A stretch of 39,125 nt of DNA from Rhodocyclaceae bacterium (GTDB taxonomy: Bacteria; Pseudomonadota; Gammaproteobacteria; Burkholderiales; UBA3065), in the NCBI GenBank assembly GCA_018882975.1, contig VEQZ01000011.1, positions 1 through 39,125 of the forward strand. Reading direction: 5' to 3'. The notes beneath the pieces are model-generated. The model was not told where the DNA came from and made no database searches. It was given only the letters and a program-made list of their open reading frames with translations. Positions 10,087 through 38,713 of the stretch are shown here, in pieces. Numbering within the stretch: position 1 is the first letter of the stretch; each line of letters starts with the position of its first letter. The translations under genes and the position numbers were made by a program.

Positions 10087-13285
<3,199 letters not shown>

Positions 13286-13293
<8 letters not shown>

Positions 13294-14434
13294 GGGCCGA
13301 CTCCGTGTTGCGGGCGGCCATGTCGCCGACGAAGCGGTCGAACAGCGGCGCCACGTCATGCGGACCGGGGCTGGCCTCGGGGTGCCCCTGGAAACAGAAG
13401 GCCGGACGGTCGGTCAGGGCAAAGCCCTGCAGGCTGCCGTCGAACAGGCTCTTGTGGGTGATGCGGGCATTGCCCGGCAGCGTCGTGGCGTCCACCGCGA
13501 AGCCGTGGTTCTGGCTGGTGATCATGACGCGGCCGCTCTCCAAGTCCTGCACCGGGTGGTTGGCGCCGTGGTGGCCGAACTTCATCTTGAGGGTCTTGGC
13601 GCCGATGGCAAGCGCCATCAACTGGTGGCCGAGACAGATGCCGAAGGTCGGGATGCGCTTGTCCAACACCGCGCGGATTGCGGCGATGGCGTAGTCGCAG
13701 GGCGCCGGGTCGCCCGGGCCGTTGGAGAGGAAGACGCCGTCCGGCTTGAGCGCGAGCACCGCGTCGACCGGCGTGCGTGCCGGCACCACGGTGATGCGAC
13801 AGCCGCGCTCGGCGAGCATGCGAAGGATGTTGTGCTTGACGCCAAAGTCGTAGGCGACCACATGGAAACGCGGCACCGCCAGCGTGCCGAACCCACTGCC
13901 CAGCCGCCACTCGGTCTGCGTCCAGTCGTAGGGCTTGCTGCAACTCACCACCTGCGCCAGATCCATGCCTTCCAGCCCGGGAAACTCTCTCGCGCGCGCC
14001 AGCGCCTCGGCCTCGTCGATGCGGCCAGCCATGATGCAGCCGTTCTGCGCGCCGGAGTCGCGCAGGATGCGGGTCAGGCGGCGCGTGTCGATTCCGGCGA
14101 TGCCCGGCGTGCCGGCATCGCGCAGGTAGTCGGTGAGGGTGCGCGTCGAGCGAAAGTTGGAGGTGCGCAGCGGCAGGTCACGGATGATCAGCGCGGCCGC
14201 GTGCACCGACTCGGACTCGGTGTCCTCAGGGTTGCTGCCGGTGTTACCGATGTGCGGGTAGGTCAGCGTCACCATCTGCCGACTGTAGGAGGGGTCGGTG
14301 AGGATCTCCTGGTAACCGGTCATCGCCGTGTTGAACACCACCTCGCCCACCGTCGCCGCCTCTGCCCCAATGGAGATGCCGCGAAACAGCGAACCGTTGG
14401 CAAGGGCAAGAAGGGCGGGGGTGGCTGCGGTCAC
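13286..14434 (-). CDS. carA: Carbamoyl-phosphate synthase small (glutaminase) subunit
   Basis: Class I glutamine amidotransferase subunit that hydrolyses glutamine and passes ammonia to CarB. The 382-residue product matches the family length. The N-terminal CarA-specific domain contains [20 protein letters not shown]; the amidotransferase domain has nucleophile Cys267 in [13 protein letters not shown] and the GHHGANHPV and [13 protein letters not shown] segments carrying the His/Glu of the triad. I chose the GTG at 14434 ([14 protein letters not shown]) because homologous sequence begins there; an in-frame ATG-like extension to 14530 covers the leader and is not coding-like. There is no strong Shine-Dalgarno sequence, so the exact start is less certain than the gene. 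Confidence 0.95.
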
Positions 14435-14494
14435 AGGGGCTCGGCAGGTGTGTTTCCGGGGGCGCGGGGCGGTTTTCGGGGTGCGGATGTGACA

Positions 14495-14519
14495 AGCGGA
14501 CACCGCTGGGGCGTCCGCT
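14495..14519 (-). promoter_or_regulatory. Leader hairpin region before carA
   Basis: The arms AGCGGAC (14495-14501) and GTCCGCT (14513-14519) can pair around an 11-base loop. The same left arm can instead pair locally as AGCGG-ACA-CCGCT (14495-14507). The two structures exclude each other, which is the form of an attenuator-like switch, but no T-run follows on the minus strand, so a classic terminator is not seen. The rest of the 14435-14601 gap is GC-rich with no gene visible. Confidence 0.4.
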
Positions 14520-14534
14520 CGTTTACGCACCGAA

Positions 14535-14564
14535 ATGATACGCGAGTCAGCCTACCCCGGGCAA
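14535..14564 (-). promoter_or_regulatory. Probable carA promoter
   Basis: On the minus strand, TTGCCC (14559-14564) and TATCAT (14535-14540) are separated by 18 bases, placed between the dapB stop and the carA start. Transcription from here would give a leader of about 95 bases that contains the inverted repeats at 14495-14519. Prediction from motif match only. Confidence 0.4.
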
Positions 14565-14601
14565 CGCTGCCGAGGCCTGCAGGAGGCAAAGCGAGGAGGC
14601 G

Positions 14602-15827
<1,226 letters not shown>

Positions 15828-23708: not shown

Positions 23709-25385
23709 CTACATCCGCTCCGGGGCGCTCACGCCCAGCAATGCGAGGCCGTTGGCGATGACCTGGCGAGTGGCGGCGGCCAGCGCCAGACGTGCGGTGC
23801 GCAGCGCCGCGTCGTCGACCAGGAACTGGCTGGCGTTGTACCAGCTGTGGAAGTCGGCGGCGAGGTCCTTGAGGTAGAACGCGACGCTGTGCGGCGCGAG
23901 GTCCGCCGCCGCGTCGGCGACCATCTGCGGGAAGGCCTCGAGGCGGTTGATCACGGCGCGCTCGTGCTCGCTGGCCAGTGGCGCGAGGCCGGCCTGCGCC
24001 AGCGCAGCGGCATCGCCGCCCCATTGTTCCAAAACGCTGCAGATGCGCGCGTGCGCATACTGGATGTAATAGACCGGGTTGTCGTTGGTCTGCGCGCGGG
24101 CCAGGTCGATGTCGAACACCAGTTGCGAGTCGGCGCGCCGCGCCGCGAGGAAGTAACGCGTCGCATCCGCACCGACCTCGTCGATGAGATCGCGCAGGGT
24201 CACGTAGCTGCCAGCGCGTTTGGAGATCTTGACCTCCTCGCCGCCGCGCATCACCGTCACCATCTGGTGCAGCACGTAGTCCGGCCAACCGGTTGGAATG
24301 CCGATACCGAGCGCCTGCAGGCCGGCGCGCACGCGGGTGATGGTGCTGTGGTGGTCGGCGCCCTGCTCGTTGATGACCCGCTCGAAGCCACGATGCCACT
24401 TGGCGGCGTGGTAGGCCACGTCCGGCACGAAATAGGTGTAGCCGCCTTCACGCTTGCGCATGACGCGGTCCTTGTCATCGCCGAAGGACGTGGTCCGCAG
24501 CCACAGCGCGCCGTCTTCCTCGAAAGTGTGGCCGGAATCGACCAGCGCCTGCACGGTGCGCTCGACCGAGCCGTCGGCGTAGAGCGCCGACTCCAGGCTG
24601 AACACGTCGAAGCGCACGCCGAAGGCCTTGAGGTCGAGGTCCTGCTCGTGGCGCAACCAGGCCACGGCGAAGTGGCGGACCGCCTCGGCATCGTCCGGGT
24701 CGCCGGCGCCGACCACGTGCTGGTCCTCGGCATCGACTTTCTCGCGGGCCATGTAGGCGCGCGCCACTTCGACGATGTAGTCGCCGCGGTAGCCGTCGGC
24801 CGGCCAAGAGGCGTGGTCGGGGCCGAGACCGCGCGCCCGCGCCTGCACCGAGAGGGTGAGGTTGTCGATCTGCGCGCCGGCGTCGTTGTAATAGAACTCG
24901 CGCGTCACCGCCCAGCCGGTGGCCTCAAGCAGGCGGCACAGGCAGTCGCCCACCGCCGCGCCGCGGCCATGGCCCACATGCAGCGGCCCGGTCGGGTTGG
25001 CCGAGACGAACTCGACCTGGACCTTGCGGCCCTGCCCCGCTTGCGAGCGGCCGAATGCGCGACCGGCGCTCAGCACCGCGTGGACCACGCCGTTGCGCGC
25101 GGCCGCGTCGACAAACAGATTGATGAAGCCGGGCCCGGCCACCTCGGCGCGCGCGACCAGCCCCGGCGCGGCCAGCGCGTCAACCAGCGCCTGCGCCAGT
25201 TCGCGCGGGTTGCGCTTGAGCGGCTTGGCCAGCACCAGCGCGATGTTGCAGGCGAAGTCGCCGTGGCCAGCTTGGCGCGGCCGCTCGAGGACTGGCGTGG
25301 CACCCCCGGCTTCGAGCCCCGCCGCCGCTACGGCGTGGGCCAGCGCGTCGGCCAGACGCTGCCGGAGATCGGGAGTGGAGGACAT
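23709..25385 (-). CDS. argS: Arginyl-tRNA synthetase
   Basis: Class I synthetase that charges tRNA-Arg. The 558-residue product (E. coli 577) has the N-terminal Add-1 domain (about 1-110), the HIGH-type signature in [16 protein letters not shown] (HVGH), and [13 protein letters not shown]. The KMSKS-like segment [15 protein letters not shown], the family motif [15 protein letters not shown], and an anticodon-binding DALR domain at the C-terminus ([18 protein letters not shown]) follow. The ATG at 25385 is the first in the conserved frame. A rho-independent terminator for the upstream cytochrome operon ends about 10 bases before it, so argS probably has its own promoter; a TATAAT lies in the loop of that terminator. 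Confidence 0.97.
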
Positions 25386-25395
25386 GGCGGCATTG

Positions 25396-25425
25396 CAAAA
25401 AAGAGGGGCGGATTATAACCGCCCC
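25396..25425 (-). terminator. Rho-independent terminator of the cytochrome cluster
   Basis: On the minus strand a perfect 7-bp GC stem, GGGGCGG / CCGCCCC (25419-25425 and 25405-25411), encloses a 7-base loop and is followed by TCTTTTTT. It lies about 75 bases after the stop of the porin-cytochrome gene and ends just before argS. The loop contains TATAAT on the minus strand, which could double as a -10 box for argS, though I see no matching -35. Confidence 0.88.
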
Positions 25426-25500: not shown

Positions 25501-26790
25501 TTAAAACGCAGTCCAGACGTAGCCGAACAGGGTGTTGTTGCCGTGCGCGTACGATCCGCCTTCCCCATCGAGGCGTTGGAAGTTGATGTACTGGAGACCG
25601 ACGCGGACATTGGCCCACGGCGCCATCCACGAGTCTTCCTTGCCCAGCGGCGTCCAGCTCAACTCGGTGATGAAGCCGCGGCTGTTGGGCGACTTGGTCG
25701 GATCGGCGGTGTAGAGGCCGATCGAGTCGCCGGTGGTCGAGAAGTAGCCTAGTGAGAGGCCGTAGGTGTTGCGATAGAAGTAGGAGGCGTTGGCCTTGAA
25801 CTCGTTGAGATGGCCGCGTTCGCCCTGCGACGAGGCGGTCTCGCGCACGTAACTGGTGTTGAGTGTGCCGATGTGCTCGCGGCCGCCGAGGTACTGGTAC
25901 ATGGCATCGACGCCAATGTCGTGGAAGTTGCCTACCGTGGCCGGATCCACAGCCCCCCGCGAGTGCAACCCGCCGTTCATGCCGAACAGCCCGACAGCGA
26001 AGGCCTGCCGTTTGAGGTCACGGAAGTAGGCGGTGCGCCAGTAGATCGTTCCGTCACCGAGCCGGCCGGGGTCGCTGTCCTTGCCCTCGCCCAGCGCGAC
26101 CTGCGTTCGCGGCGCAAGCGTGCGGTAGGTGCCGACCTCGGCGTAGATCGAGTTGTCGAGAAATCCGTAAAGGGTCAGACCGCCGACCGTGTGCTCCAAG
26201 CCGCGTCCGCCACCGATCAGCGATGCCGCACTGGGTCCGCCCGCCAACTCCGAGCCGGTGTAGGGGAAGCCCCACACGGTGAGCGTGTTGAACGGGTCCT
26301 GCACGGTCGGGTTGTTGTTGAAACTCAGGCCGTAGACGAGCTCCTTGCCGCCCACGCTGCGGGCATCGACCAGGCGCAGGTCGGTGTGGTCGAGGCCCCA
26401 TTCGTGGCCGATGCCATCCCAGGTCGCCTGCACGAAGCCGCCGATGTGGTCGTTGACGCGGCCGGCGGCAAAGATCGAGGCCTCGTTGAGGCGGTCGCTA
26501 TTGACCTTGTCGACCTCGGCAGTCTTGGAGCCGCGCACTTTGGTGTAGCCGGCGATGGCATGCGCCGACATCGGCATCCAGGTGCTTGAGCCGTCCCAGT
26601 CGGTATAGCCGCCGATCTTGAACTTCATGCCGTTCGGCGTGAGTTGCGGGCCGAAGGCGCCGATGTGGCAAGCGGTGCAGGCCTGCCCGGTCTGACGGGC
26701 GAAGCTCGGCAGGGCGTGCGCGGGGGATGCCCATGCCAGCAACGCGGCGCAGGCGGCGAACAGGCGCAGGAGGGTGTGAAGGGTTCGCAT
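25501..26790 (-). CDS. Cyc2-like outer-membrane cytochrome-porin fusion
   Basis: Predicted outer-membrane beta-barrel carrying one N-terminal c-type heme. The 429-residue precursor has a signal peptide (about 1-26, ending SPAHA), then LPSFARQTGQACTACH with the heme motif CTACH at 38-42, then a Q-LTPNGMKFKIGGY segment near 48-61. This order (FARQTG, CxxCH, LTPxGxxFKxxGY) is that of the Cyc2 Fe(II)-oxidase family and its relatives. The remaining ~365 residues alternate polar and aromatic residues in short strands and end in Phe, as outer-membrane barrels do. The ATG at 26790 was chosen because it starts the signal peptide. It is last in a three-cytochrome operon. Substrate is unknown: iron oxidation is possible, but other family members may serve different donors or acceptors. 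Confidence 0.75.
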   Translation of the reverse strand: MRTLHTLLRLFAACAALLAWASPAHALPSFARQTGQACTACHIGAFGPQLTPNGMKFKIGGYTDWDGSSTWMPMSAHAIAGYTKVRGSKTAEVDKVNSDRLNEASIFAAGRVNDHIGGFVQATWDGIGHEWGLDHTDLRLVDARSVGGKELVYGLSFNNNPTVQDPFNTLTVWGFPYTGSELAGGPSAASLIGGGRGLEHTVGGLTLYGFLDNSIYAEVGTYRTLAPRTQVALGEGKDSDPGRLGDGTIYWRTAYFRDLKRQAFAVGLFGMNGGLHSRGAVDPATVGNFHDIGVDAMYQYLGGREHIGTLNTSYVRETASSQGERGHLNEFKANASYFYRNTYGLSLGYFSTTGDSIGLYTADPTKSPNSRGFITELSWTPLGKEDSWMAPWANVRVGLQYINFQRLDGEGGSYAHGNNTLFGYVWTAF

Positions 26791-26864
26791 GGGTGTCTCG
26801 CGGAGGGTGATGCGTGGCCGGCCAGAGCCGGACGGATTCGGGCGGATGGCGTGGCGGGCCGCGC

Positions 26865-27260
26865 TCACTTGACGGACAGCAGGTAGGCGATCACGTCGGC
26901 ACGGTCCTTCTCGTCATCGAGGCCGTCGTACTTCATCTTTCCGCCCGGCACGACCTTCTTGGGGCGGGTGATGTAGGCGTCGATCTTTTCCGGGCTCCAG
27001 GTGATGTCGCTGGCCTTCATGGCGTCGGAATAGGCAAAGCCGGCCACAGTGGCGGCCTTGCGGCCGTTGACGCCGTTCAGGCTCGGCCCCTTCTTGTTCT
27101 TGCCGGCGGTCAGGCTGTGGCAGTCGGAGCACTCGCCAGCAAAGACCTTCTCGCCTTTGGCCGGGTCGCCGTTGGCATGGGCCACAAACGGGGTGACCGC
27201 CAGTGCGCTTGCGGCAAAGACGGCCGCAGCAAGGCTTCGTGAGTTTGGGAAGTGCATCAT
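26865..27260 (-). CDS. Periplasmic class I cytochrome c
   Basis: Small soluble monoheme electron carrier. The 131-residue precursor has a signal peptide (about 1-29, ending VAHA), a heme-binding CSDCH at 44-48, and a methionine axial-ligand segment (VVPGGKMKYDGL) followed by the C-terminal helix (KDRADVIAYLLSVK). This is the fold of cytochrome c2/c550-type proteins. A GAGAGG Shine-Dalgarno precedes two tandem ATGs at 27260 and 27257, so the exact first residue is uncertain by one. It sits between the NapC/NirT-type gene (33 bases) and the porin-cytochrome gene (74 bases) and would suit as the periplasmic shuttle between them. Confidence 0.93.
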   Translation of the reverse strand: MMHFPNSRSLAAAVFAASALAVTPFVAHANGDPAKGEKVFAGECSDCHSLTAGKNKKGPSLNGVNGRKAATVAGFAYSDAMKASDITWSPEKIDAYITRPKKVVPGGKMKYDGLDDEKDRADVIAYLLSVK

Positions 27261-27293
27261 TGGTCCTCTCTTGGATGTGGTGTCGGCACGGGC

Positions 27294-27863
27294 TCAGGAA
27301 CCACCCACCACATCGGCGGGCTCGAGGCCGCCAGGGGGTTCCTTGTGGGCGATGCCGTAGTGGCAGTCGATGCAGGTCTTGCCGTCCTTGCCGATCTTCT
27401 GGTGCTGCTTGCGCGCGGTCGGGCCCTGCGCCTCAGGATCCATCGCCCTGACGTCGTGGCAGTGGCGGCACTCGGCCGAATCGGTCGCCTTCATGTGGCG
27501 CCAGACCTGCTTGGCCATTTCGAGGCGGTGCGCCTCGAATTTCTCGGGCGTGTCGATCTCGCCGGTGAAGTGCGACCAGACGTCCTTGGCGGCGCCGATC
27601 TTGCGCAGCGTCAGCCCGACCGGGTCGTGCGGCACATGGCAGTCGGAGCAACCGGCCTTGACCCCGGCGGCATTGCGCGCGTGGATGGTGTCCTTGTATT
27701 CGGCGTAGTTGTGGTCGCGCATCTCGTGGCACGAGGTGCAGAACTCGACGCTGCTGGTGGCATGGACGCCCCACTGCATGCCGGCGAACACGGCACCGCC
27801 GGCGAGAAAAAAACCCGCCAACCCAATCACGCCGAGCGTGAACCGTCGCCGCAACAGACCCAT
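27294..27863 (-). CDS. NapC/NirT-family tetraheme membrane cytochrome c
   Basis: Membrane-anchored periplasmic cytochrome that typically takes electrons from quinol and passes them to soluble partners. The 189-residue product has one N-terminal membrane helix (residues about 9-29), and four heme motifs: CTSCH (42-46), CSDCH (72-76), CRHCH (132-136) and CIDCH (164-168). Other conserved segments include CHEMRDHNYAEYKDTIHARN and SDCHVPHDP. This heme number and spacing are the standard NapC/NirT pattern. No nap, nir or tor reductase gene is adjacent; instead its neighbours are a soluble cytochrome c and a Cyc2-like porin, so its partner is probably one of these. First gene of the cluster, 125 bases after the sensor-kinase stop. 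Confidence 0.94.
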   Translation of the reverse strand: MGLLRRRFTLGVIGLAGFFLAGGAVFAGMQWGVHATSSVEFCTSCHEMRDHNYAEYKDTIHARNAAGVKAGCSDCHVPHDPVGLTLRKIGAAKDVWSHFTGEIDTPEKFEAHRLEMAKQVWRHMKATDSAECRHCHDVRAMDPEAQGPTARKQHQKIGKDGKTCIDCHYGIAHKEPPGGLEPADVVGGS

Positions 27864-27919
27864 CGCAATCCCGGAACGAGAGATATCCGACTGGATTGGA
27901 ACTGCCTGAACCCTTCAAA

Positions 27920-27949
27920 AGCCTGACAGGGCAAAGGGTCCATCAGGCT
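27920..27949. repeat. Inverted repeat upstream of the cytochrome cluster
   Basis: Arms AGCCTGA (27920-27926) and TCAGGCT (27943-27949) are perfect inverted repeats separated by 16 bases, in the 125-base gap between the sensor kinase stop and the NapC/NirT-type gene. The site lies about 60-85 bases before that start codon. It could be an operator or the remains of a terminator; there is no T-run. Confidence 0.35.
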
Positions 27950-27988: not shown

Positions 27989-29377
27989 TCAAGCGGGCAG
28001 ATGGATGACGAAACAGGCGCCGCCCATCGGTGCGGGCTCAAAATCGACGCGGCCGCCGTGCGCCTCGGCCGCAGCGCGGACGATGGCCAAGCCCAGCCCG
28101 CTGCCAGGCACAGGCGTGTCACCACGTCGGAAGCGCTCGAACAGACTGCTGCGGTCCTTCTCGTCGACGCCGCAGCCATCATCCTCGACCAGCAGCAGCG
28201 CTTCGGCGTGGTCAGCGTGGCAGGCAATGGTCACGCGGGTGGCACCCACCGCATGCAACAGGGCGTTTTCGACCAGATTGAGCAGCGCCTCGCGCAGCAG
28301 CCAGCGCACGCCGCGAATGCGCTCGCAGCCGATATCAAAGCCGAGATCGATGCCGCGAGCCAGCGCGCGGTCGAGGCACTGGTCGGCGACGCTGGTGAGC
28401 AGGGCCGACACGTCCACCGCCGCGGCTTGCGGTCCGCCCTCCACGGCATCGCGGGCGCGCGCCAGCGCGAGCATCTGGTGGGTGGTGTGGGTCAGTTCGC
28501 GGCTGCTGTCGATGACCTCGCCGAGCCGCCGGGCGGTGTCCGGGTCAGCCCCGCGCGCGGCGAGCTCGAGCCGGGTGCGCAGCGTCGCCAGCGGTGTGCG
28601 CAACTGGTGGGCAGCCGCTGAGAGAAAGGCCTGTTCGTCGGCGTGAACCTTCTCTAGCCGGCCGAGCAGGCGGTTGATCGCCTCGACCAGACCACCGGCC
28701 TCGCTCGGCAGCCCCCGCAGCGAGAGTGGGCGCAGGTCGTCGGGTTTGCGCGCATCGACGGCACGCCCAAGGCGCATCAGCGGGTCCATGACCCAGCCGG
28801 TGGCAAGTGACAGGACCAGCGAGAGCAGGAGGAAGACCAGGATATTGACGTAGACGACGTTGCCGAGGATGTCGCTGGCGATCTGGTTGCGCTTGCCCAT
28901 GGTCTCGGCCACGACCACGCGCAAACCCGGCGCGTCGCGCACGGACAAGGTCACCAAGCGCCACGGCTGGCCGTCGATGCGCGCGTCGGCGAACACCGGG
29001 ACGGCCACTCGCGGCGGCGCGGCGTAAGCCTCGAGGCCCTCGGCACCGGCCAGCAACTGCCCATCGCCGTCGATCACCGCAAAACGGACACTGTCGTCTG
29101 CGTCCGAATGCGCGACACGCATGCCGATGTCGCGGGCTGTCGCCGCGACGCGGGCTGCATCGCCGGCGACCGGGACCAGCGCGTCCGCAAGCACATCGGC
29201 GAGGTCGGCGATGGCGTGGTCGTAACCCTCGTTGGCGAGGCGCACGGCATCGCGGTAGTCGAGCACGGCACTGGCTGGCACGCCCACCGCCAGACACAGC
29301 AGGATCACCAGCATCAAGCGCAGGCGCAGACTCGCCAGCCCGCCGCGCGGGGCACCACGCAACTCAGGCGTCGGCAT
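27989..29377 (-). CDS. Sensor histidine kinase (TctE/QseC-like)
   Basis: Inner-membrane two-component sensor; signal unknown. The 462-residue product has a first membrane helix (about 17-38, LRLRLMLVILLCLAVGVPAS), a periplasmic sensing region of about 125 residues resembling the 2CSK_N type, and a second helix (about 180-200, YVNILVFLLLSLVLSLA). A HAMP-like linker, HisKA (SAAAHQLRTPLATL, with the phosphoacceptor His) and the ATPase domain follow (N box LLNLVENALLHA, G boxes DDGCGVDEKD and GSGLGLAIV). Its start overlaps the response-regulator stop by 14 bases. The TctDE and QseBC groups share this architecture. Proximity to the cytochrome cluster suggests, but does not show, that it controls it. 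Confidence 0.92.
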   Translation of the reverse strand: MPTPELRGAPRGGLASLRLRLMLVILLCLAVGVPASAVLDYRDAVRLANEGYDHAIADLADVLADALVPVAGDAARVAATARDIGMRVAHSDADDSVRFAVIDGDGQLLAGAEGLEAYAAPPRVAVPVFADARIDGQPWRLVTLSVRDAPGLRVVVAETMGKRNQIASDILGNVVYVNILVFLLLSLVLSLATGWVMDPLMRLGRAVDARKPDDLRPLSLRGLPSEAGGLVEAINRLLGRLEKVHADEQAFLSAAAHQLRTPLATLRTRLELAARGADPDTARRLGEVIDSSRELTHTTHQMLALARARDAVEGGPQAAAVDVSALLTSVADQCLDRALARGIDLGFDIGCERIRGVRWLLREALLNLVENALLHAVGATRVTIACHADHAEALLLVEDDGCGVDEKDRSSLFERFRRGDTPVPGSGLGLAIVRAAAEAHGGRVDFEPAPMGGACFVIHLPA

Positions 29378-30041
29378 CGTCGTCTTCGAGGCGGTAACCG
29401 AGACCGCGCACGGTACGAATCATGCGGCCGTCCTCGCCGAGTTTGGCGCGCAGGCGCGAGACATAGATCTCGATGGCGTTGCCGGTGATCTCGCGCTCCC
29501 AAGTGCCCATGGCGGCGACCAGCGCGTCCTTGGACAGGATGCCGGGTGCCGCCATCGCCAGAGTGCGCAGCAGGCGCCATTCGCTGGGAGTAAGGTCGAG
29601 CGGCTCACCCCGCAGCCGCGCGTCCTGGCGCTGCAGATCGATCTCCAGGACGCCCATGGACAGGCGCGCCGCACGCAGCGCGTTGTCACGCCGCACCAGC
29701 GCACGCACGCGCGCCATGAACTCCGCCAGGTCAAAGGGCTTGACCAGATAGTCATCGGCGCCCTCGTCGAGGCCACGGACACGGTCCGCCAGGCCATCGC
29801 GCGCGGTGACGATGAGCACCGGCGTGCCGATTCGCCGGCCACGTACGGCGCGCACCAGGTCGAGGCCGTTGCCGTCGGGAAGACCGAGGTCGACCACCAG
29901 CAGCGAGTAGTCACCGCTGCGCGCACTGATGATCGCCGGGTCCAACCGCGCAATGCGGTCAACGCCAAAGTTCTGTGCCTCGAGGGCCTCGGTCATCGCC
30001 GCAGCGAGACCGGCATCGTCCTCGACCAGCAGAACTCTCAC
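29364..30041 (-). CDS. OmpR-family response regulator (TctD/QseB-like)
   Basis: DNA-binding regulator paired with the overlapping sensor kinase. The 225-residue product has a receiver domain (about 1-115) with EDD at 7-9, phosphoacceptor Asp51 in LLVVDLGLPDGNG, VTARDG and LVKPFD, and a winged-helix domain (about 128-220) with LTPSEWRLLRTLA, AIEIYVSRLRAKLGEDG and RTVRGLGYRL. These spellings place it with TctD/QseB-type regulators. It starts 11 bases after the DUF2237 gene stop, so the three genes probably share a transcript. Target promoters are not known; the cytochrome gene cluster downstream is the nearest candidate. Confidence 0.93.
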   Translation of the reverse strand: MRVLLVEDDAGLAAAMTEALEAQNFGVDRIARLDPAIISARSGDYSLLVVDLGLPDGNGLDLVRAVRGRRIGTPVLIVTARDGLADRVRGLDEGADDYLVKPFDLAEFMARVRALVRRDNALRAARLSMGVLEIDLQRQDARLRGEPLDLTPSEWRLLRTLAMAAPGILSKDALVAAMGTWEREITGNAIEIYVSRLRAKLGEDGRMIRTVRGLGYRLEDDDADA

Positions 30042-30052
30042 GGGTCAGCCGG

Positions 30053-30463
30053 TCACGCGTCGGCCGGCGGCAAAACGACGGCGTGCCGTCGCAGGTCGTC
30101 GAGGCTCAGGTAGGCCAATGCCGAAAAGTGCGTCGCTTCGAGGATCACCGGCGGGGCGACGTCGGCCTCGAGCGCCTCCTTCCAGCGCGCCGCGCAGAGG
30201 CACCAGCGGTCGCCCGGGCGCAGGCCGGGAAAGCCATAGTGCGGCATGGGCGTGACCAGATCGTTGCCCTGCGCGACCGAGAAGCGCAAAAACTCGTCGG
30301 TGACCACCGCGCAGACCACGTGCAAGCCGACGTCGCCGGGCCCGGTGCGGCAGCAGCCGTCACGAAAGAAACCGGTGACCGGCTTGAGGCCACAAGGCTC
30401 GAGCTCTCCACCCAGCACGTTGACCTGGCTGGAGGCGGGGTTTTCGGAAGGCGTCTGACTCAT
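30053..30463 (-). CDS. DUF2237 family protein
   Basis: Conserved bacterial protein of unknown function. The 136-residue product shows the features I associate with DUF2237: LGGELEPCGLKPVTGFFRDGCC split around residues 17-38, DVGLHVVCAVVTDEFL, and a strongly conserved GFPGLRPGDRWCLCAARW. Five cysteines are present, arranged as single C, CC, C and CxC, which might bind metal or form disulfides; no signal peptide is seen, so it is likely cytoplasmic. The ATG at 30463 was chosen over a longer frame that runs into the dnaE promoter region. It is divergent from dnaE and 11 bases ahead of the response regulator. Confidence 0.85.
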   Translation of the reverse strand: MSQTPSENPASSQVNVLGGELEPCGLKPVTGFFRDGCCRTGPGDVGLHVVCAVVTDEFLRFSVAQGNDLVTPMPHYGFPGLRPGDRWCLCAARWKEALEADVAPPVILEATHFSALAYLSLDDLRRHAVVLPPADA

Positions 30464-30480
30464 CGGGTTCGGTCTGCGGG

Positions 30481-30509
30481 TGGGGTGAAAAGGGCCCTCA
30501 TTGTAGAAT
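30481..30509 (+). promoter_or_regulatory. Possible dnaE promoter
   Basis: A TAGAAT hexamer (30504-30509) lies 41 bases before the dnaE start in the 87-base divergent gap. The -35 position 17 bases upstream (30481-30486, TGGGGT) is a poor match, so this is only a -10 candidate. On the other strand the gap must also hold the DUF2237 promoter, which I could not identify. Confidence 0.3.
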
Positions 30510-30550
30510 CGTCCGACGCCGCAAGACCCATTCCCGCTACCGAGACCTGC

Positions 30551-33500
30551 ATGCCGCAACCGCGCTTTGTCCACCTGCGACTGCACAGCGAATACTCGGT
30601 GAGCGACGGCACCACGCGCGTCGATGATGCAGTGGCGGCGGCACGCGCCGACGGCCAGCCGGCGCTGGCCCTGACCGACCTCGGCAATCTGTTTGGTCTG
30701 GTCAAGTTCTACAACGCCGCGCGCGGCGCTGGCGTCAAGCCGATCTGCGGCGCCGAGCTGTGGCTGGCCGGCGCGGGCGATGCCGAGCCTTCACGCATGC
30801 TGTGGCTGGTGCGCGACCACGGGGGTTACCTCGCGCTGTGCAGGCTCATGACGCGAGCCTATCGCGAAGGCATGCAGCGCGGCCGCGCCGTGCTTCGGCG
30901 CGACTGGTTCGACGCCGAAGACTGCAGGGGCCTGATCCTGCTCTGCGGCGCCCGCCACGGCGAGATCGGCCGGGCGCTGCTCGGCGGGCATGCAGATGCG
31001 GCGGAGGCGCTGGCCCGGGCGTGGGCGGCGCGCTTTCCCGGCGCGTTCTACCTCGAGGCCCAGCGCGACGGCTCGCCCGAATCCGAGACGCACACCCGCG
31101 CGGCGGCACGTCTGGCGAGCATGCTGGGTCTGCCGCTGGTTGCCACCCACCCGGTGCAGTTCCTCGCTCCGGCCGACTTCAAGGCACACGAGGCGCGCGT
31201 CTGCATCGCCGAGGGCTATGCGCTGGCCGACCGTCGTCGGCCGCGGCCCTACACACCGCAGCAGTACTTCGCCAGCCAGGCCGAGATGGCCGAGCGCTTC
31301 GCCGACCTGCCGCAGGCGCTGGAGAACGCGGTCGAGATCGCGCGGCGCTGCAACCTCACGCTCACGCTGGGCAAGTCGCGTCTACCGCTGTTCCCCACGC
31401 CCGATGGCGTGACCTTGGACGACCACCTGGTCGCCGAATCCGAGGCCGGTCTGGAGCGGCGCCTGACGCAACTCTACGCAGACCCGCAGCAGCGCGAGGC
31501 GGAGCGGCCGCGCTACCGCGAGCGCCTCGGCTTCGAGTGTCGGACCATCATCCAGATGGGCTTTCCGGGCTACTTCCTGATCGTTGCCGACTTCATCAAC
31601 TGGGCCAAGAACAACGGCGTGCCGGTCGGCCCCGGACGCGGCTCCGGCGCCGGCTCGCTGGTGGCCTACAGCCTCGGCATCACCGACCTCGATCCGCTCC
31701 GATACGACCTGCTGTTCGAGCGCTTCCTCAACCCGGAGCGGGTGTCCATGCCTGACTTCGACATCGACTTTTGTCAGGAAGGCCGCGACCGCGTCATCGA
31801 TTACGTGCGCGGCAAATATGGCGAGGAATCGGTGTCGCAGATCGTCACCTTTGGCACCATGGCGGCGCGGGCCGTGCTGCGCGACGTCGGCCGCGTGCTG
31901 GAATGGGGCTATAACCGCACCGACGAGCTGGTCAAGCTGGTGCCCAACCCGCCGGGCAAGGCGGTGACGCTGCGCCGCCGCAGCGACCCGGACGACAAGC
32001 AGACCGTCTACGCCCGCGAGGAGTCGCCCGAACTCGAGGCGCGCGAAGCGCAGGACGAGGAGACCGCGCAGCTGCTGGCGCTGGCCGAGCAGCTCGAAGG
32101 CACCATCCGCAACGTCGGCATGCATGCCGGCGGCGTGCTCATCGCGCCGGGCCGGCTGACCGACTTCTGCCCGCTGTACATCGCCGAGGGCAGCGGCCCG
32201 GTGAGCCAGTTCGACAAGGACGACGTGGAGGCGGCCGGGCTGGTCAAGTTCGACTTCCTCGGGCTGACCACGCTGACCATTCTCGCCGCCGCCGAGAAGT
32301 ACGTGCGCGAGATGCCGCCCGAGCAGGGTGGCGATGCCGGCTTCGACCTGCGGCAGATCCCGCTCGACGACCGCGCCACCTTCGAACTGCTGGCCGGCGC
32401 CAACACCACCGCCGTGTTCCAGCTTGAATCGCGCGGCATGAAGGACATGCTCAAGCGCGCCAGACCGGACCGCTTCGAGGACATCATTGCGCTGGTGGCG
32501 CTCTACCGACCCGGGCCGATGGACCTCATCCCGGATTTCATTGAGCGCAAGCACGGCAAACAACGCGTCGAATACCTCGACGAGCGCCTGCGGCCGATTC
32601 TCGGCGAGACCTACGGCATCATGGTTTACCAGGAACAGGTGATGCAGATCGCGCAGGTGATCGGCGGCTACTCGCTGGGCGGCGCCGACCTCTTGCGCCG
32701 CGCCATGGGCAAGAAGAAACCCGAGGAGATGGCCGCGCACCGCGTCACATTCACCGAGGGCGCAGCGAAGAACGGCGTGCCGGCGGCACGCGCAACGCAG
32801 TTGTTCGATTTGATGGAACGCTTTGCCGGCTACGGCTTCAACAAGTCGCACGCGGCGGCTTATGCGCTGGTGGCCTACCAGACCGCCTGGATGAAGGCGC
32901 ACCACCCGGCCGCCTTTGCCGCTGCCAACATGAGTTCGGCGATGGACGACACCGACAAGCTGCGGGTGTTCTTCGAGGACGCCAAGCAGAACGGCATCGC
33001 CGTCTTGCCGCCCGACGTCAACGCGTCGGACTACCGCTTCGTGCCGGTCAGCCGCGAGCAGGTGCGCTACGGGGTGGGCGGCATCAAGGGCGTGGGCGAG
33101 GGCGCGATCCTGAGCTTGGTGGCGGCGCGCCAGGCCGATGGCGGCTTCGCCAGTCTGTTCGACTTCTGCCTGCGCGTGGACCGGCGCCTGGCCAACCGCA
33201 AGACCGTCGAGGCGCTGATCCGCGGCGGCGCGCTCGACACGCTGCACCCGGAGCGGGCGGCCATGCTCGCCTCGGTCGGGCTGGCCATGGAGGCGGCGCA
33301 GCAGGCCGAGGCCCACGCCAATCAGGTGAGCCTGTTCGGCGACGACCCGGTGGCCGTGGCGTCCCCGCAACTGGTCGCCTGCGCGCCGTGGTCTGAGGAA
33401 GAGCGGCTTGCTGCCGAGAAGGCGGTGCTCGGGCTCTACCTGTCGGGGCACCCCTTCGAGGCGGCGTGGCCGCAGTTGCAGGCGTTTGTCCGCGCTCGCC

Positions 33501-34938: not shown

Positions 34939-35628
34939 TCACTGCCGCAGATGGCGGGCAAAAAATCTCTCGGTGCGCTCCCACGCCAGCGCGGCGGAGG
35001 CGGGGTCGTAAGCCAGCGCATCCAAGTGCTTGCTGTCGGCATCCTCGTTGGCAAAGGCGTGTTTGGCGTCGTAGCGGAAGAACTCGAAACCGACCCCCGC
35101 CGCGCGCAAGCTGTGCTCCAGCGCATCGACACCGGCGATGGCAAAGAAGTCGTCGCGCGTCGCCCAGTGCCCCATCAGCGGCGCATGCACCTTGCCGACG
35201 TCGACGAAACCGAGCGGCGGGTAGCCATACCAGATGCAGAAGGCGTCCGCCTCCGGCGCCATGCACGCCGAGAGCACGGTGAGCGCGCCGCCCATGCAGA
35301 AGCCAGTCACACCAACCTTGGCCGAACCGCTGGCCTTGAGGTGCTGCACTGCGCCGCGGATGTCCTGACTCGCCGCGTCGGTAAAGTCGAGGCCTTGCAT
35401 CAGGTGGCTGGCCTCCTCGGCATCCACCCCCAACTGGCCGCGGTAGAGGTCGGGGACCAGCACGCGGTAGCCAGCCGCGGCCAGTCGCGCCGCCACGCCC
35501 TTGATCTGCGCGTTGACGCCCCACCACTCCTGAATCACGACGATGCCCGGCGCTCCAACCGGGCCGGTCAATACGCCGCGCGCGCTGCCGCCGTCCGGGC
35601 GGGGGTAGTCGATGGTCTGCTGATCCAT
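34939..35628 (-). CDS. Dienelactone hydrolase family protein
   Basis: Alpha/beta hydrolase of the dienelactone hydrolase family; the classic reaction opens dienelactone in chlorocatechol breakdown, but many homologues have other or unknown ester substrates. The 229-residue product has the family segment IVVIQEWWGVNAQIKG near residues 29-44, nucleophile Cys111 in GFCMGGALTV, the aspartate of HWATRDDFF, and the histidine in YDAKHAFAN, which complete the Cys-Asp-His triad. The ATG at 35628 has an excellent AAGGAG Shine-Dalgarno sequence eight bases upstream. There is no signal peptide. No aromatic-degradation genes are adjacent, so the physiological substrate is unknown. Confidence 0.92.
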   Translation of the reverse strand: MDQQTIDYPRPDGGSARGVLTGPVGAPGIVVIQEWWGVNAQIKGVAARLAAAGYRVLVPDLYRGQLGVDAEEASHLMQGLDFTDAASQDIRGAVQHLKASGSAKVGVTGFCMGGALTVLSACMAPEADAFCIWYGYPPLGFVDVGKVHAPLMGHWATRDDFFAIAGVDALEHSLRAAGVGFEFFRYDAKHAFANEDADSKHLDALAYDPASAALAWERTERFFARHLRQ

Positions 35629-35753
35629 GTCCGCTCCTTGCTTGGGTTCGCTCGGCGCTTCGGTTTGCTGCTCGGTCCGGTTCGCGGCTTGGCCGTTTTC
35701 GTGCCCGCGTCCCGCTCTGCGCCGGGCCAATGCGCCCGTCGGCGCGCGCCGCG

Positions 35754-35821
35754 CCTGGTCGAGAATAGACCGCGGCCACGACACGCGCTTTGCCCCTCCC
35801 CGCCCCTGGTCTAGAATCGGC
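35754..35821. repeat. Imperfect 17-bp direct repeat in the DLH/dmrB gap
   Basis: CCTGGTCGAGAATAGAC (35754-35770) and CCTGGTCTAGAATCGGC (35805-35821) match at 14 of 17 positions and start 51 bp apart, about five helical turns. The second copy includes the predicted -10 box of the C1 operon. The rest of the 35629-35860 divergent gap is GC-rich with no gene visible. Confidence 0.5.
35789..35817 (+). promoter_or_regulatory. Probable promoter of the C1-cofactor operon
   Basis: TTTGCC (35789-35794) and TAGAAT (35812-35817) are separated by 17 bases and lie about 45 bases upstream of the dmrB-like start. The -10 is good and the -35 partial. Prediction from motif and position. Confidence 0.4.
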
Positions 35822-35860
35822 GCCCCTGCTGCCGCGCGCCAAGGCCCTTCGGCTCTTCCC

Positions 35861-36481
35861 ATGCAAGACGTCAAACCCCGCCTCGCCTGGGGCATCACCG
35901 GGTCGGGCCACTTTCTGCGCGAGTCACTTGAAGTGGCGCTTGCGCTGCCGCACTGCGACCTGTTCCTGACACGCGCCGCCGAGGAGATCCTGCCGATGTA
36001 CGGCATCACGCTGGCGTCGCTCAAGGAGCGCACCCGCGTCTACCGCGACAGCACCGCCAGTTCGGTACCGGTCGGGCTGTTTTATTACGGCCACTATCAC
36101 ACGGTGGTGATCGCGCCGGCGACCAGCAACACCATGGCCAAGTGCGCGCTGGGTCTCTCGGACAGCCTGGTCAGCAATATGTTCGCGCAGGCCGGCAAGA
36201 CGCGCGTGCCGATCTACGTCTACGCCTGCGACACCGAACCGGAGATGGACACCGAGGCGCCCAAGGACTGGGTCAAGGTCTACCCGCGCGCCATCGACCT
36301 CGAATACACGCGGCGCGTCGGCGAGATGGAAGGCGTGACCGTGCTGCATTCGGTCGAGGCGCTGCGCACCGCCATCGACGAACGCTTGCGGGTGGCGCCC
36401 AAGCCCGCTCTCGGCGAGGTGCACCGCGACCTCGACCTGCTTATCGGCGAGGGCGGGGCGGGCGGCGGGACCGCGGTGTGA
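35861..36481 (+). CDS. dmrB: DmrB-like flavoprotein (dihydromethanopterin reductase)
   Basis: Probable FMN-containing flavoprotein that reduces dihydromethanopterin to tetrahydromethanopterin, the last step of H4MPT synthesis; a flavoprotein of this kind (DmrB) is known from Burkholderia. The 206-residue product has the flavoprotein-family N-terminal strand-loop WGITGSGHFLRESLE (residues 10-24), a central YHTVVIAPATSNTMAKCALGLSDSLVSNM stretch split around 80-107 that is typical of the fold, and VPIYVYACDTEP. It is an archaeal-type protein in a bacterium. The ATG at 35861 starts the conserved region. Assignment to dmrB over other archaeoflavoprotein-type paralogues rests on the neighbouring methanopterin and methanofuran genes; a 73-base gap precedes the next gene. 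Confidence 0.78.
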   Translation: MQDVKPRLAWGITGSGHFLRESLEVALALPHCDLFLTRAAEEILPMYGITLASLKERTRVYRDSTASSVPVGLFYYGHYHTVVIAPATSNTMAKCALGLSDSLVSNMFAQAGKTRVPIYVYACDTEPEMDTEAPKDWVKVYPRAIDLEYTRRVGEMEGVTVLHSVEALRTAIDERLRVAPKPALGEVHRDLDLLIGEGGAGGGTAV

Positions 36482-36554
36482 TGCCGATCCAGTCCGCCGA
36501 CCCGGCGCGTTTCGCGCCCGCTGAGCACACTGGCGGCCACGCGCAGGCCTGCCG

Positions 36555-38012
36555 ATGAGCGAGCGCATCCTCTTCCTCACCGGCAAGCTGGCGAAGAAGA
36601 GCCTCGAGCAGGTGCTCGAGGGCATGGCGCCGACCGGCTTCGAGTACACCGTGCACGACCTCGGCATCTCGGTGGCGGGACTGATGACCACCGACATGAT
36701 CCTGCGCCGGCTGCCGGATGCGGCCGGCCATACGCGCATGGTCCTGCCCGGGCGCTGCCGCGGCGAACTCGAGCCGCTGGTGGCCAGGTACGGCATCCCG
36801 GTCGAGCGCGGCCCGGATGATCTCAAGGACATGCCGCAGTTCTTCGGTCGCGCGGCCACCCGCCCCGACCTGTCGCAGCAGCGCGTCCGCATCTTTGCCG
36901 AGATCGTCGAGGCGGCGCAGGTGAGCGTGGCGCGCATCGTCGAGCGGGCGACTTACTACCGCGACTGCGGCGCCGACGTGATCGACCTGGGCTTTCTGCC
37001 GGGAGAGCGCTTCGAGCATCTGGAAGAGGCCATCGCCGAGCTCAAACGCATGGGCCTGCGGGTGAGTGTGGACTCACTCGCGCCGGAAGACCTGATCCGT
37101 GGTGGTCGGGCCGGCGCCGACTACCTGCTCTCGCTGCACGAGGGCACGCTGCACGTCGCCGACGAGGTCGCGAGCACGCCGGTGCTGGTGGGCCAGCCGG
37201 CACAGGACCTCGCGAGCCTCGAGCGCGCCATGGAGGCCATGGACAAGCGCGGCCGGGCGATGCTGTGCGACCCCATTCTCGAGCCGATCCACTTTGGCTT
37301 TACCGAGTCGATCGTGCGTTACCGCGACTTCCGCGCCAAGTACCCGGACGCGCCGATGATGATGGGGGTCGGCAACCTGACCGAGCTCACCGACGCCGAC
37401 ACCAGCGGCATCAACGCGCTGCTGTTCGGCATCATCTCCGAGTTGCGCATCGACGCGGTGCTGGCGACCGAGGTCAGTCCGCATGCGCGCAGCGCGGTGC
37501 GCGAGGCCGACCGCGCGCGGCGCATCATGTATTGGGCCGGCGAGCGCAATCGCCTGCCCAAGGACGTCGATGACAGCCTGATGAACCTGCACGAGCGCCG
37601 CCCCTTCCCCTACACCCCGGCCGAGGTCGCCGAGTTCGCCGCGGCGGTGAAGGACGCCAACTACCGCATCCAGGTGTCGGACGCCGGCGTGCACCTGTAC
37701 AACCGCGACGGGCTGCTGACCGAGGGCGACCCCTACGATTTCTTCCCCAAATTGCGCGAAGCGCTCGGCGGCGATGCCGGCCACGCTTTCTACTTGGGCG
37801 TGGAACTGGCGCGCGCCCACACCGCGTGGAAACTCGGCAAGCGCTACGACCAGGACGAGGACCTCAAGTGGGGCGCGGCGCTGCCGCCGGTGGTCGAGGA
37901 CCTGACGCACCAGAAGGCCATGGGCGCGACCATGCCGCTGCGGCGGCAGAACAAGGGCCGCAGCAAGCCAGCCAGCGATGCAGCCACCGGCTCAGAAGGC
38001 GAAGCAGAGTGA
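36555..38012 (+). CDS. DUF6513/dihydropteroate-synthase-like protein of H4MPT biosynthesis
   Basis: Probable pterin-binding enzyme of tetrahydromethanopterin synthesis. The 485-residue product has an N-terminal domain (about 1-125) of the DUF6513 type (ILFLTGKLAKKSLEQVLEGM, residues 5-24), then a TIM-barrel related to dihydropteroate synthase (about 125-350) with YYRDCGADVIDLGFLPGE and LRVSVDSLAPEDLIRGGRAGADYLLSL each in the expected place. A C-terminal extension (about 350-460) follows, then a charged low-complexity tail (RRQNKGRSKPASDAATGSEG). Close relatives are archaeal and methylotroph proteins. Canonical folate DHPS is much shorter (about 280), so this is not folP. It overlaps the next gene by GTGA. 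The exact reaction is not established to my knowledge. Confidence 0.85.
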   Translation: MSERILFLTGKLAKKSLEQVLEGMAPTGFEYTVHDLGISVAGLMTTDMILRRLPDAAGHTRMVLPGRCRGELEPLVARYGIPVERGPDDLKDMPQFFGRAATRPDLSQQRVRIFAEIVEAAQVSVARIVERATYYRDCGADVIDLGFLPGERFEHLEEAIAELKRMGLRVSVDSLAPEDLIRGGRAGADYLLSLHEGTLHVADEVASTPVLVGQPAQDLASLERAMEAMDKRGRAMLCDPILEPIHFGFTESIVRYRDFRAKYPDAPMMMGVGNLTELTDADTSGINALLFGIISELRIDAVLATEVSPHARSAVREADRARRIMYWAGERNRLPKDVDDSLMNLHERRPFPYTPAEVAEFAAAVKDANYRIQVSDAGVHLYNRDGLLTEGDPYDFFPKLREALGGDAGHAFYLGVELARAHTAWKLGKRYDQDEDLKWGAALPPVVEDLTHQKAMGATMPLRRQNKGRSKPASDAATGSEGEAE

Positions 38013-38713
38013 GCAACCACTTCATCCGCGAGGTCATCGTCACCACGCAGTCGGCCGAGGGCCACGCGCACATCGCACCGATGGGCGTGTGGGAGGAGGA
38101 CGGGCTGGTCACGTTGGCGCCGTTCCGGCCCTCGCGCACGCTCGACAACGTGCTCGCCCGCGGCGTCGCGGTGGTCAACGCCTGCGACGACGTGCGCGTG
38201 TTCGCCGGCTGCCTGACCGGCCGCCACGACTGGCCGCTGGTGGCCGGCGCCACAGCAGGCACGGTGAGATTGCACGACGCGGTGAGCCACCAGGAACTGC
38301 TACTGGTGCGTGTGGACGAGGATGCGTTGCGGCCGAAGCTGCGCTGCCGCGTCGCGCACGCCGAGGCGCACCGGGTTTTTGAAGGCTTCAACCGCGCGCG
38401 CGCGGCAGTGCTGGAGTGCGCCATCCTCGCCAGCCGCCTGGACAGGCTGCCGGCCGAGAAGATTCGCAACGAGTTGGCTTACCTGTCCATCGCCATCGAC
38501 AAGACGGCCGGGGCGGCGGAGAGAGAGGCGTGGTCGTGGTTGCTGGCCAAGATTGAGGCGCACCTGGTTCAACCGGACCCGGTTCGACCGGACCCGGTTC
38601 AAACGAACTCGGTTCAAACGGACCAGCAGCAAACAGACTCGGCACAAGCAGGCACGGCGGCAGACGGCGTCTCGGGCAGCCTCGCGACAGACAAAGGCCC
38701 GGAACCGGCATGA
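38009..38713 (+). CDS. DUF447 family protein with repeat-built tail
   Basis: Conserved protein found with methanopterin-linked C1 genes in methylotrophs and in methanogens; probably a flavin-binding split-barrel fold, with no proven reaction. The 234-residue product begins with a GTG overlapping the previous stop. Its core (about 1-185) has VIVTTQSAEGHAHIAPMGVW, GVAVVNACDDVRVFAGCLTG and the helical segment FEGFNRARAAVLECAILASRLDRL. The last ~48 residues are low-complexity pentapeptide-like units (VQPDP, VRPDP, VQTNS, VQTDQ, QQTDS) encoded by 15-bp tandem repeats, not expected in the family. The stop overlaps the mfnB start (ATGA). Confidence 0.85.
   Translation: MSNHFIREVIVTTQSAEGHAHIAPMGVWEEDGLVTLAPFRPSRTLDNVLARGVAVVNACDDVRVFAGCLTGRHDWPLVAGATAGTVRLHDAVSHQELLLVRVDEDALRPKLRCRVAHAEAHRVFEGFNRARAAVLECAILASRLDRLPAEKIRNELAYLSIAIDKTAGAAEREAWSWLLAKIEAHLVQPDPVRPDPVQTNSVQTDQQQTDSAQAGTAADGVSGSLATDKGPEPA
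38566..38655 (+). repeat. 15-bp tandem repeat array inside the DUF447 gene
   Basis: Six consecutive 15-bp units start at 38566, 38581, 38596, 38611, 38626 and 38641. The first two, GGTTCAACCGGACCC and GGTTCGACCGGACCC, differ by one base; units 3 and 4 keep GGTTCAAACG; units 5 and 6 are degenerate. As the period is a multiple of three the reading frame is preserved, giving five-residue protein repeats. Confidence 0.85.

Follow-up and report, generated by a model that had tools for sequence, protein, structure and literature searches.

A stretch of 39,125 nucleotides (here called the window) from a Rhodocyclaceae bacterium contains five adjoining genes on the minus strand, which probably encode an electron wire, switched on by a signal, that spans the envelope between the quinone pool and the cell surface. 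In the order of transcription, they encode an OmpR/PmrA-type response regulator (29364..30041; PF00072, E 6.3e-22; PF00486, E 2.2e-18), a sensor histidine kinase with a periplasmic 2CSK_N domain (27989..29377; PF08521, E 1e-23; HisKA and HATPase_c), a NapC/NirT tetraheme membrane cytochrome of 189 aa as putative quinone module (27294..27863; PF03264, E 2.5e-67), a class I monoheme cytochrome c of 131 aa (26865..27260; PF00034, E 1.3e-10), and a Cyc2-like porin-cytochrome of 429 aa (25501..26790, with its ATG at 26790), which carries an N-terminal ALPSFARQTGQACTACHIGAFGPQL and a predicted 16-strand barrel. Both flanking genes, for a DUF2237 protein (30053..30586, minus strand; PF09996, E 1e-53) and for ArgS (23709..25385, minus strand; tRNA-synt_1d and DALR_1; syntenic in sister species), lie outside the module and mark the left and the right edge, respectively, of an acquired or lost segment.

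An earlier note on this DNA had named the three haem proteins, their classes, and their order of transcription, all of which hold. The unit is larger than the three genes proposed there, as the regulator and the kinase (27989–30041) belong to it too; regulator, kinase, napC, monoheme, and Cyc2-like gene are one five-gene unit, presumably cotranscribed. The terminator said to close it finds weak support. The GC hairpin directly behind the stop codon does not exceed shuffled sequences in stability; a hairpin with T-run at 25425–25405 looks like a terminator, but chance alone would give 2.7 sites of this kind in the region, and the hairpin shares bases with a TATAAT box upstream of argS. A sigma-70 scan returned no promoter.

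Cyc2 proteins have been defined by an AXPXFAR[QK][TY] motif, one CXXCH, a PXL, a length of at least 365 residues, and a 16-strand barrel (PMC8406198). The Cyc2-like protein of the window had no match to any Pfam or NCBIfam model in profile searches, and a PDB sequence search returned nothing useful. It contains a single CXXCH within its 429 residues and reads ALPSFARQT-GQA-CTACH-IGAFG-PQL, which corresponds to AXPXFAR[Q/K][T/Y] followed by the downstream PXL, the latter beginning five residues after the CH (four in PMC8406198). In an AlphaFold2 model built on 64 homologues (mean pLDDT 88, pTM 0.86), short helices at residues 29–59, the haem segment, precede 16 strands at residues 74–428, in line with the ∼16-strand C-terminal β-barrel of Cyc2. 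When the model was compared with the PDB using Foldseek, the top matches were the 16-strand porins OmpT, OmpU, OmpC, and Omp32, with OprP ranking lower. The outer-membrane barrel with N-terminal haem, previously read from the letters alone, is thus supported by a confident structure prediction. On sequence grounds, the window porin fits the published definition of Cyc2, and Fe(II) oxidation is one candidate activity. One tested member of each Cyc2 cluster oxidizes Fe(II), and the potential of Cyc2 from strain PV-1 is +208 mV (PMC8406198); the function of distant homologues is called uncertain by the authors (PMC8406198, PMC7029218). When a reference Cluster 1 Cyc2 was sought in a named Gallionellaceae bin, nothing beyond the known locus came up. 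Distant Cyc2-like genes, each followed by a c-type cytochrome gene and labelled cytochrome C or hypothetical protein in the annotation, were found on plasmids of Ideonella dechloratans, Polymorphobacter, and Acidithiobacillus ferrooxidans (L131, L132, and L133).

The membrane cytochrome belongs to the NapC/NirT family (PF03264, 226 bits versus a cut-off of 24.1; four CXXCH) and has a hydrophobic N-terminal stretch, as judged by eye. Its gene is the sole member of this family in the window genome (G000), and there is none in four sister genomes. With 211 bits, it stays below the cut-off (310.6) of TIGR02161, the model for NapC/NirT of nitrate or nitrite reductase. A napA gene was not found in the genome (91% complete), three of the four molybdopterin matches scoring below the NapA cut-off and the fourth carrying Fer2 and NADH-G type domains. 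As this NapC is the only one of its family and no NapA passes the cut-off among the molybdopterin proteins scanned, a part in nitrate reduction is unlikely; NapC as a partner of nitrate reductase was rejected on these grounds and for missing the TIGR02161 cut-off. In the NapC tree, the protein pairs with the NapC of the Cyc2-like locus of Rhodopila (support 98/94), and the group nearest to this pair, with weak support (78/49), consists of NapCs adjoining decaheme cytochromes. The small cytochrome is of class I (PF00034, 42.9 bits versus a cut-off of 21.3; one CXXCH), and the distal methionine in VPGGKM is kept in all 13 aligned homologues, which is consistent with His/Met ligation.

For the comparison across genomes, 88 loci were assembled: 80 from named organisms (GTDB contig scan), seven others from the same order, and the window. 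A homologue of the window monoheme adjoins the Cyc2-like gene in 50 of the 88, and in 33 of these 50, a cytochrome b561 (PF01292; identity checked by Pfam in two representative loci) adjoins it as well, often between the kinase and the porin gene; regulator–kinase–b561–Cyc2-like–monoheme is a frequent order. Carriers include Zoogloea, Azoarcus, Ideonella, Roseateles, Derxia, Aquabacterium, and Uliginosibacterium. NapC occurs without b561 in three loci: the window, Zoogloeaceae MAG-185 (L047; regulator–kinase–porin–monoheme–NapC, the contig stopping within napC), and an uncultured Rhodopila (L089; porin–monoheme–NapC). None of the 88 loci contains both NapC and b561; this exclusion is modest by itself, the three NapC loci all being among the 17 of 50 without b561 (chance ∼0.035). 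Thus, NapC as the inner-membrane partner, as first proposed, holds for three loci, but the usual partner in the larger module is cytochrome b561. The porin tree places the window inside the b561 carriers (branch support 96) and requires three changes of the NapC label; NapC therefore appears to have entered the module on more than one occasion. What emerges is a widespread module with an exchangeable inner-membrane part (NapC or b561), apparently undescribed before.

Among the best 20 loci from a NapC search of 399 genomes of the same order, none further had NapC beside a Cyc2-like gene. Several NapC genes in these 20 stand beside decaheme and monoheme genes, and the mto-like arrangement of NapC with a ten-haem and a small monoheme gene was seen in L135, L138, L139, L142, and L145, the NapCs of which make up the weakly supported neighbor group of the window NapC. 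The family of the Derxia genome G060 (74 genomes) yielded two close homologues and no NapC locus. In a third form (L032 10754–13000, L062 2297–3648, L068 11281–13024, and L085 10489–12474), genes for a cytochrome c′ and a diheme cytochrome lie downstream of the Cyc2-like and monoheme genes; the upstream kinase is of another type in three of these loci, and b561 is found in none. Uliginosibacterium gangwonense (L073) has a second Cyc2-like gene (13156–14643) ∼1.8 kb downstream of the module.

Close homologues of the window kinase adjoin the Cyc2-like gene in 25 of the 74 loci testable for the kinase. Between the kinase and the first cytochrome gene recurs an 11-bp direct repeat with the consensus TTGTCAGG-N3-TTGAAGG, and ∼11 bases beyond it a CTAnnnT. 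Regulators of the OmpR family use two half-sites 11 bp apart. When one mismatch was allowed, this putative operator was present in 23 of the 25 loci with the kinase and in none of the 49 without (Fisher p 3.6e-17, a value that overstates independence because the loci are related); no other match at this threshold occurred elsewhere in 1.5 Mb of locus sequence. The operator of the window (27912..27928, minus strand; half-sites TGTCAGG-N4-TGAAGG) matches the consensus from the relatives exactly, has no second perfect copy in the genome of 1.95 Mb, and is identical over all 17 bases in the Ideonella loci L053, L077, and L080. It lies 48 bases before napC. In L047, the operator precedes the porin–monoheme–NapC genes, whereas L089 has neither kinase nor operator, so that two of the three NapC loci have napC behind this operator. 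Because the operator sits directly before napC, the window NapC occupies the regulated slot held by b561 elsewhere. The regulator, for which PmrA is the best NCBIfam model (score below cut-off), would be the protein that binds this operator.

Comparison with sister species bears on the history of the segment. In two of them (G002 and G003), all five genes, the regulator included, are missing at this site, and the DUF2237 gene directly adjoins argS (with a gap of ∼60 bases in G003). Their joint absence implies that the block was gained or lost together. In a third (G001), the contig end beside argS (L127 4234–4288) reads TLFGYIWTAF-stop, compared with TLFGYVWTAF-stop in the window (frame set by eye); the match of the end codons indicates that this site likewise holds the porin gene, at least, in G001, and the module is probably present there but unassembled. 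Apart from this fragment, the four sister genomes yielded no Cyc2-like gene in a porin search.

As we envisage it, the sensor kinase would activate the OmpR-family regulator, which would bind TTGTCAGG-N3-TTGAAGG and switch on napC, the monoheme gene, and the Cyc2-like gene. NapC, the place of which cytochrome b561 takes in most relatives, would exchange electrons with the quinone pool, and the monoheme cytochrome, being soluble, would cross the periplasm. The single haem of the Cyc2-like porin would pass the electron across the outer membrane, handing it to a dissolved partner outside or taking it from one. Outward flow from quinol is slightly favored over inward flow from Fe(II) because the NapC and b561 families are both quinol-reactive membrane cytochromes and because many of the named carriers (Zoogloea, Azoarcus, Ideonella, and Derxia) are heterotrophs. 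It is also favored because ImoA, of the NapC family, oxidizes quinol in vivo (PMC9600427), and because of the potentials of ImoA (0 to −400 mV; PMC13390432) and of the PV-1 Cyc2. Speaking against it, the biochemically tested Cyc2 proteins oxidize Fe(II), that is, they work inward (PMC8406198). A broader outward reading, possible but less likely than not, takes in the whole clade: quinol-driven export under two-component control would proceed via a monoheme porin in place of a multiheme conduit, NapC and b561 would be interchangeable, and the Cyc2-like proteins would act as external reductases, not as iron oxidases.

If electrons instead flowed inward, Fe(II) would be oxidized by the Cyc2-like protein and the electrons handed via the monoheme to a cbb3 or aa3 oxidase, NapC returning a minor share to quinone; we regard this as possible but doubtful. 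The porin agrees with the sequence definition of Cyc2, each cluster of which has an Fe(II)-oxidizing member, and a NapC-family quinone reductase has been proposed in the Mto pathway. Two genes for haem-copper oxidase subunit I are present in the genome, together with formate dehydrogenase-like proteins and complex I; therefore inward flow to oxygen is also possible. However, the step from ∼+200 mV to quinone is uphill, and we know of no coupling of NapC to proton-motive force; moreover, many carriers are not known as iron oxidizers, and ImoA, the nearest studied case, oxidizes quinol.

A role in redox stress or metal homeostasis instead of respiration is rather unlikely; here, upon sensing by the kinase, quinol electrons would either reduce a metal outside the cell, Fe(III) for instance, or serve to remove an oxidant. 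Having a two-component system of its own and just one perfect operator genome-wide would suit such a role, as would PmrA being the best, albeit below cut-off, model for the regulator, and the E. coli relative of b561, CybB, is a superoxide:quinone oxidoreductase; but likeness to the PmrA/QseC family does not identify the signal of the kinase. That the NapC of an unrelated respiratory chain merely adjoins the porin genes is very improbable and, despite the gene order of the window differing from that of the other two NapC loci, largely refuted already, since the grouping recurs in Betaproteobacteria and Alphaproteobacteria, in two lineages other than that of the window, the only NapC of the genome lies directly behind the operator of the module, the block was gained or lost whole, and the window and Rhodopila NapCs pair in the tree.

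The preferred electron wire is made of known parts, that is, Cyc2, NapC/ImoA, and monoheme carriers, the combination of which with a dedicated two-component system was not found described in the open-access papers searched, whether the Cyc2-like gene stands with NapC or with b561. Fused cytochrome-porins of the Cyc2 type share motif, single CXXCH, PXL, length, and 16-strand barrel with the window protein (PMC8406198, PMC7029218). Their described partners are rusticyanin, Cyc1, and other periplasmic cytochromes feeding oxidase and bc1/ACIII (PMC8406198, PMC7029218), whereas the module has NapC or b561, a c550-like cytochrome, and a two-component system of its own. The Mto system of Sideroxydans lithotrophicus ES-1 (MtoAB, ImoA, PmcA, and MtoD; PMC13390432, PMC9600427) likewise combines an inner-membrane NapC-family tetraheme cytochrome, a periplasmic monoheme, and an outer-membrane conduit, but its conduit is built from a decaheme protein set in a large, separate porin, in contrast to the monoheme fused to a 16-strand barrel. 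No match to the MtrB/PioB porin (PF11854) was found in the window genome, which speaks against an MtoAB/MtrAB complex and agrees with the earlier view that electrons would cross the envelope without MtrA/MtoA-type decaheme proteins. The Mtr pathway of Shewanella (CymA-MtrAB) also employs an inner-membrane quinol dehydrogenase of the NapC/NirT family in extracellular electron transfer; unlike the window, it relies on a multiheme conduit and surface reductases, without a Cyc2-like protein. In the Fe(II)-responsive ircABCD genes of iron oxidizers (Slit_1321-1324; PMC8788666, PMC12442390), a b-type cytochrome stands beside small c-type cytochromes, as in the module, but neither a porin-cytochrome nor a two-component pair is part of the cluster as listed.

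Cyc2 homologues serve as markers of iron oxidation in metagenomes, yet many occur in bacteria not known to oxidize iron. The module connects one large Cyc2-like clade with membrane cytochromes that react with quinol and with a dedicated signal system whose operator is recognizable, and it cautions against taking every Cyc2-like gene as a sign of iron oxidation. Its function, namely, the inducer acting on the operator and the direction of electron flow, can be tested in cultured carriers (Ideonella, Zoogloea, Derxia, and Azoarcus). Elsewhere in the window, positions 35627–38713 encode a flavoprotein along with DUF6513 and DUF447 proteins; these families are associated with the synthesis of tetrahydromethanopterin and methanofuran, and their presence suggests that this small genome of 1.95 Mb supports C1 metabolism.
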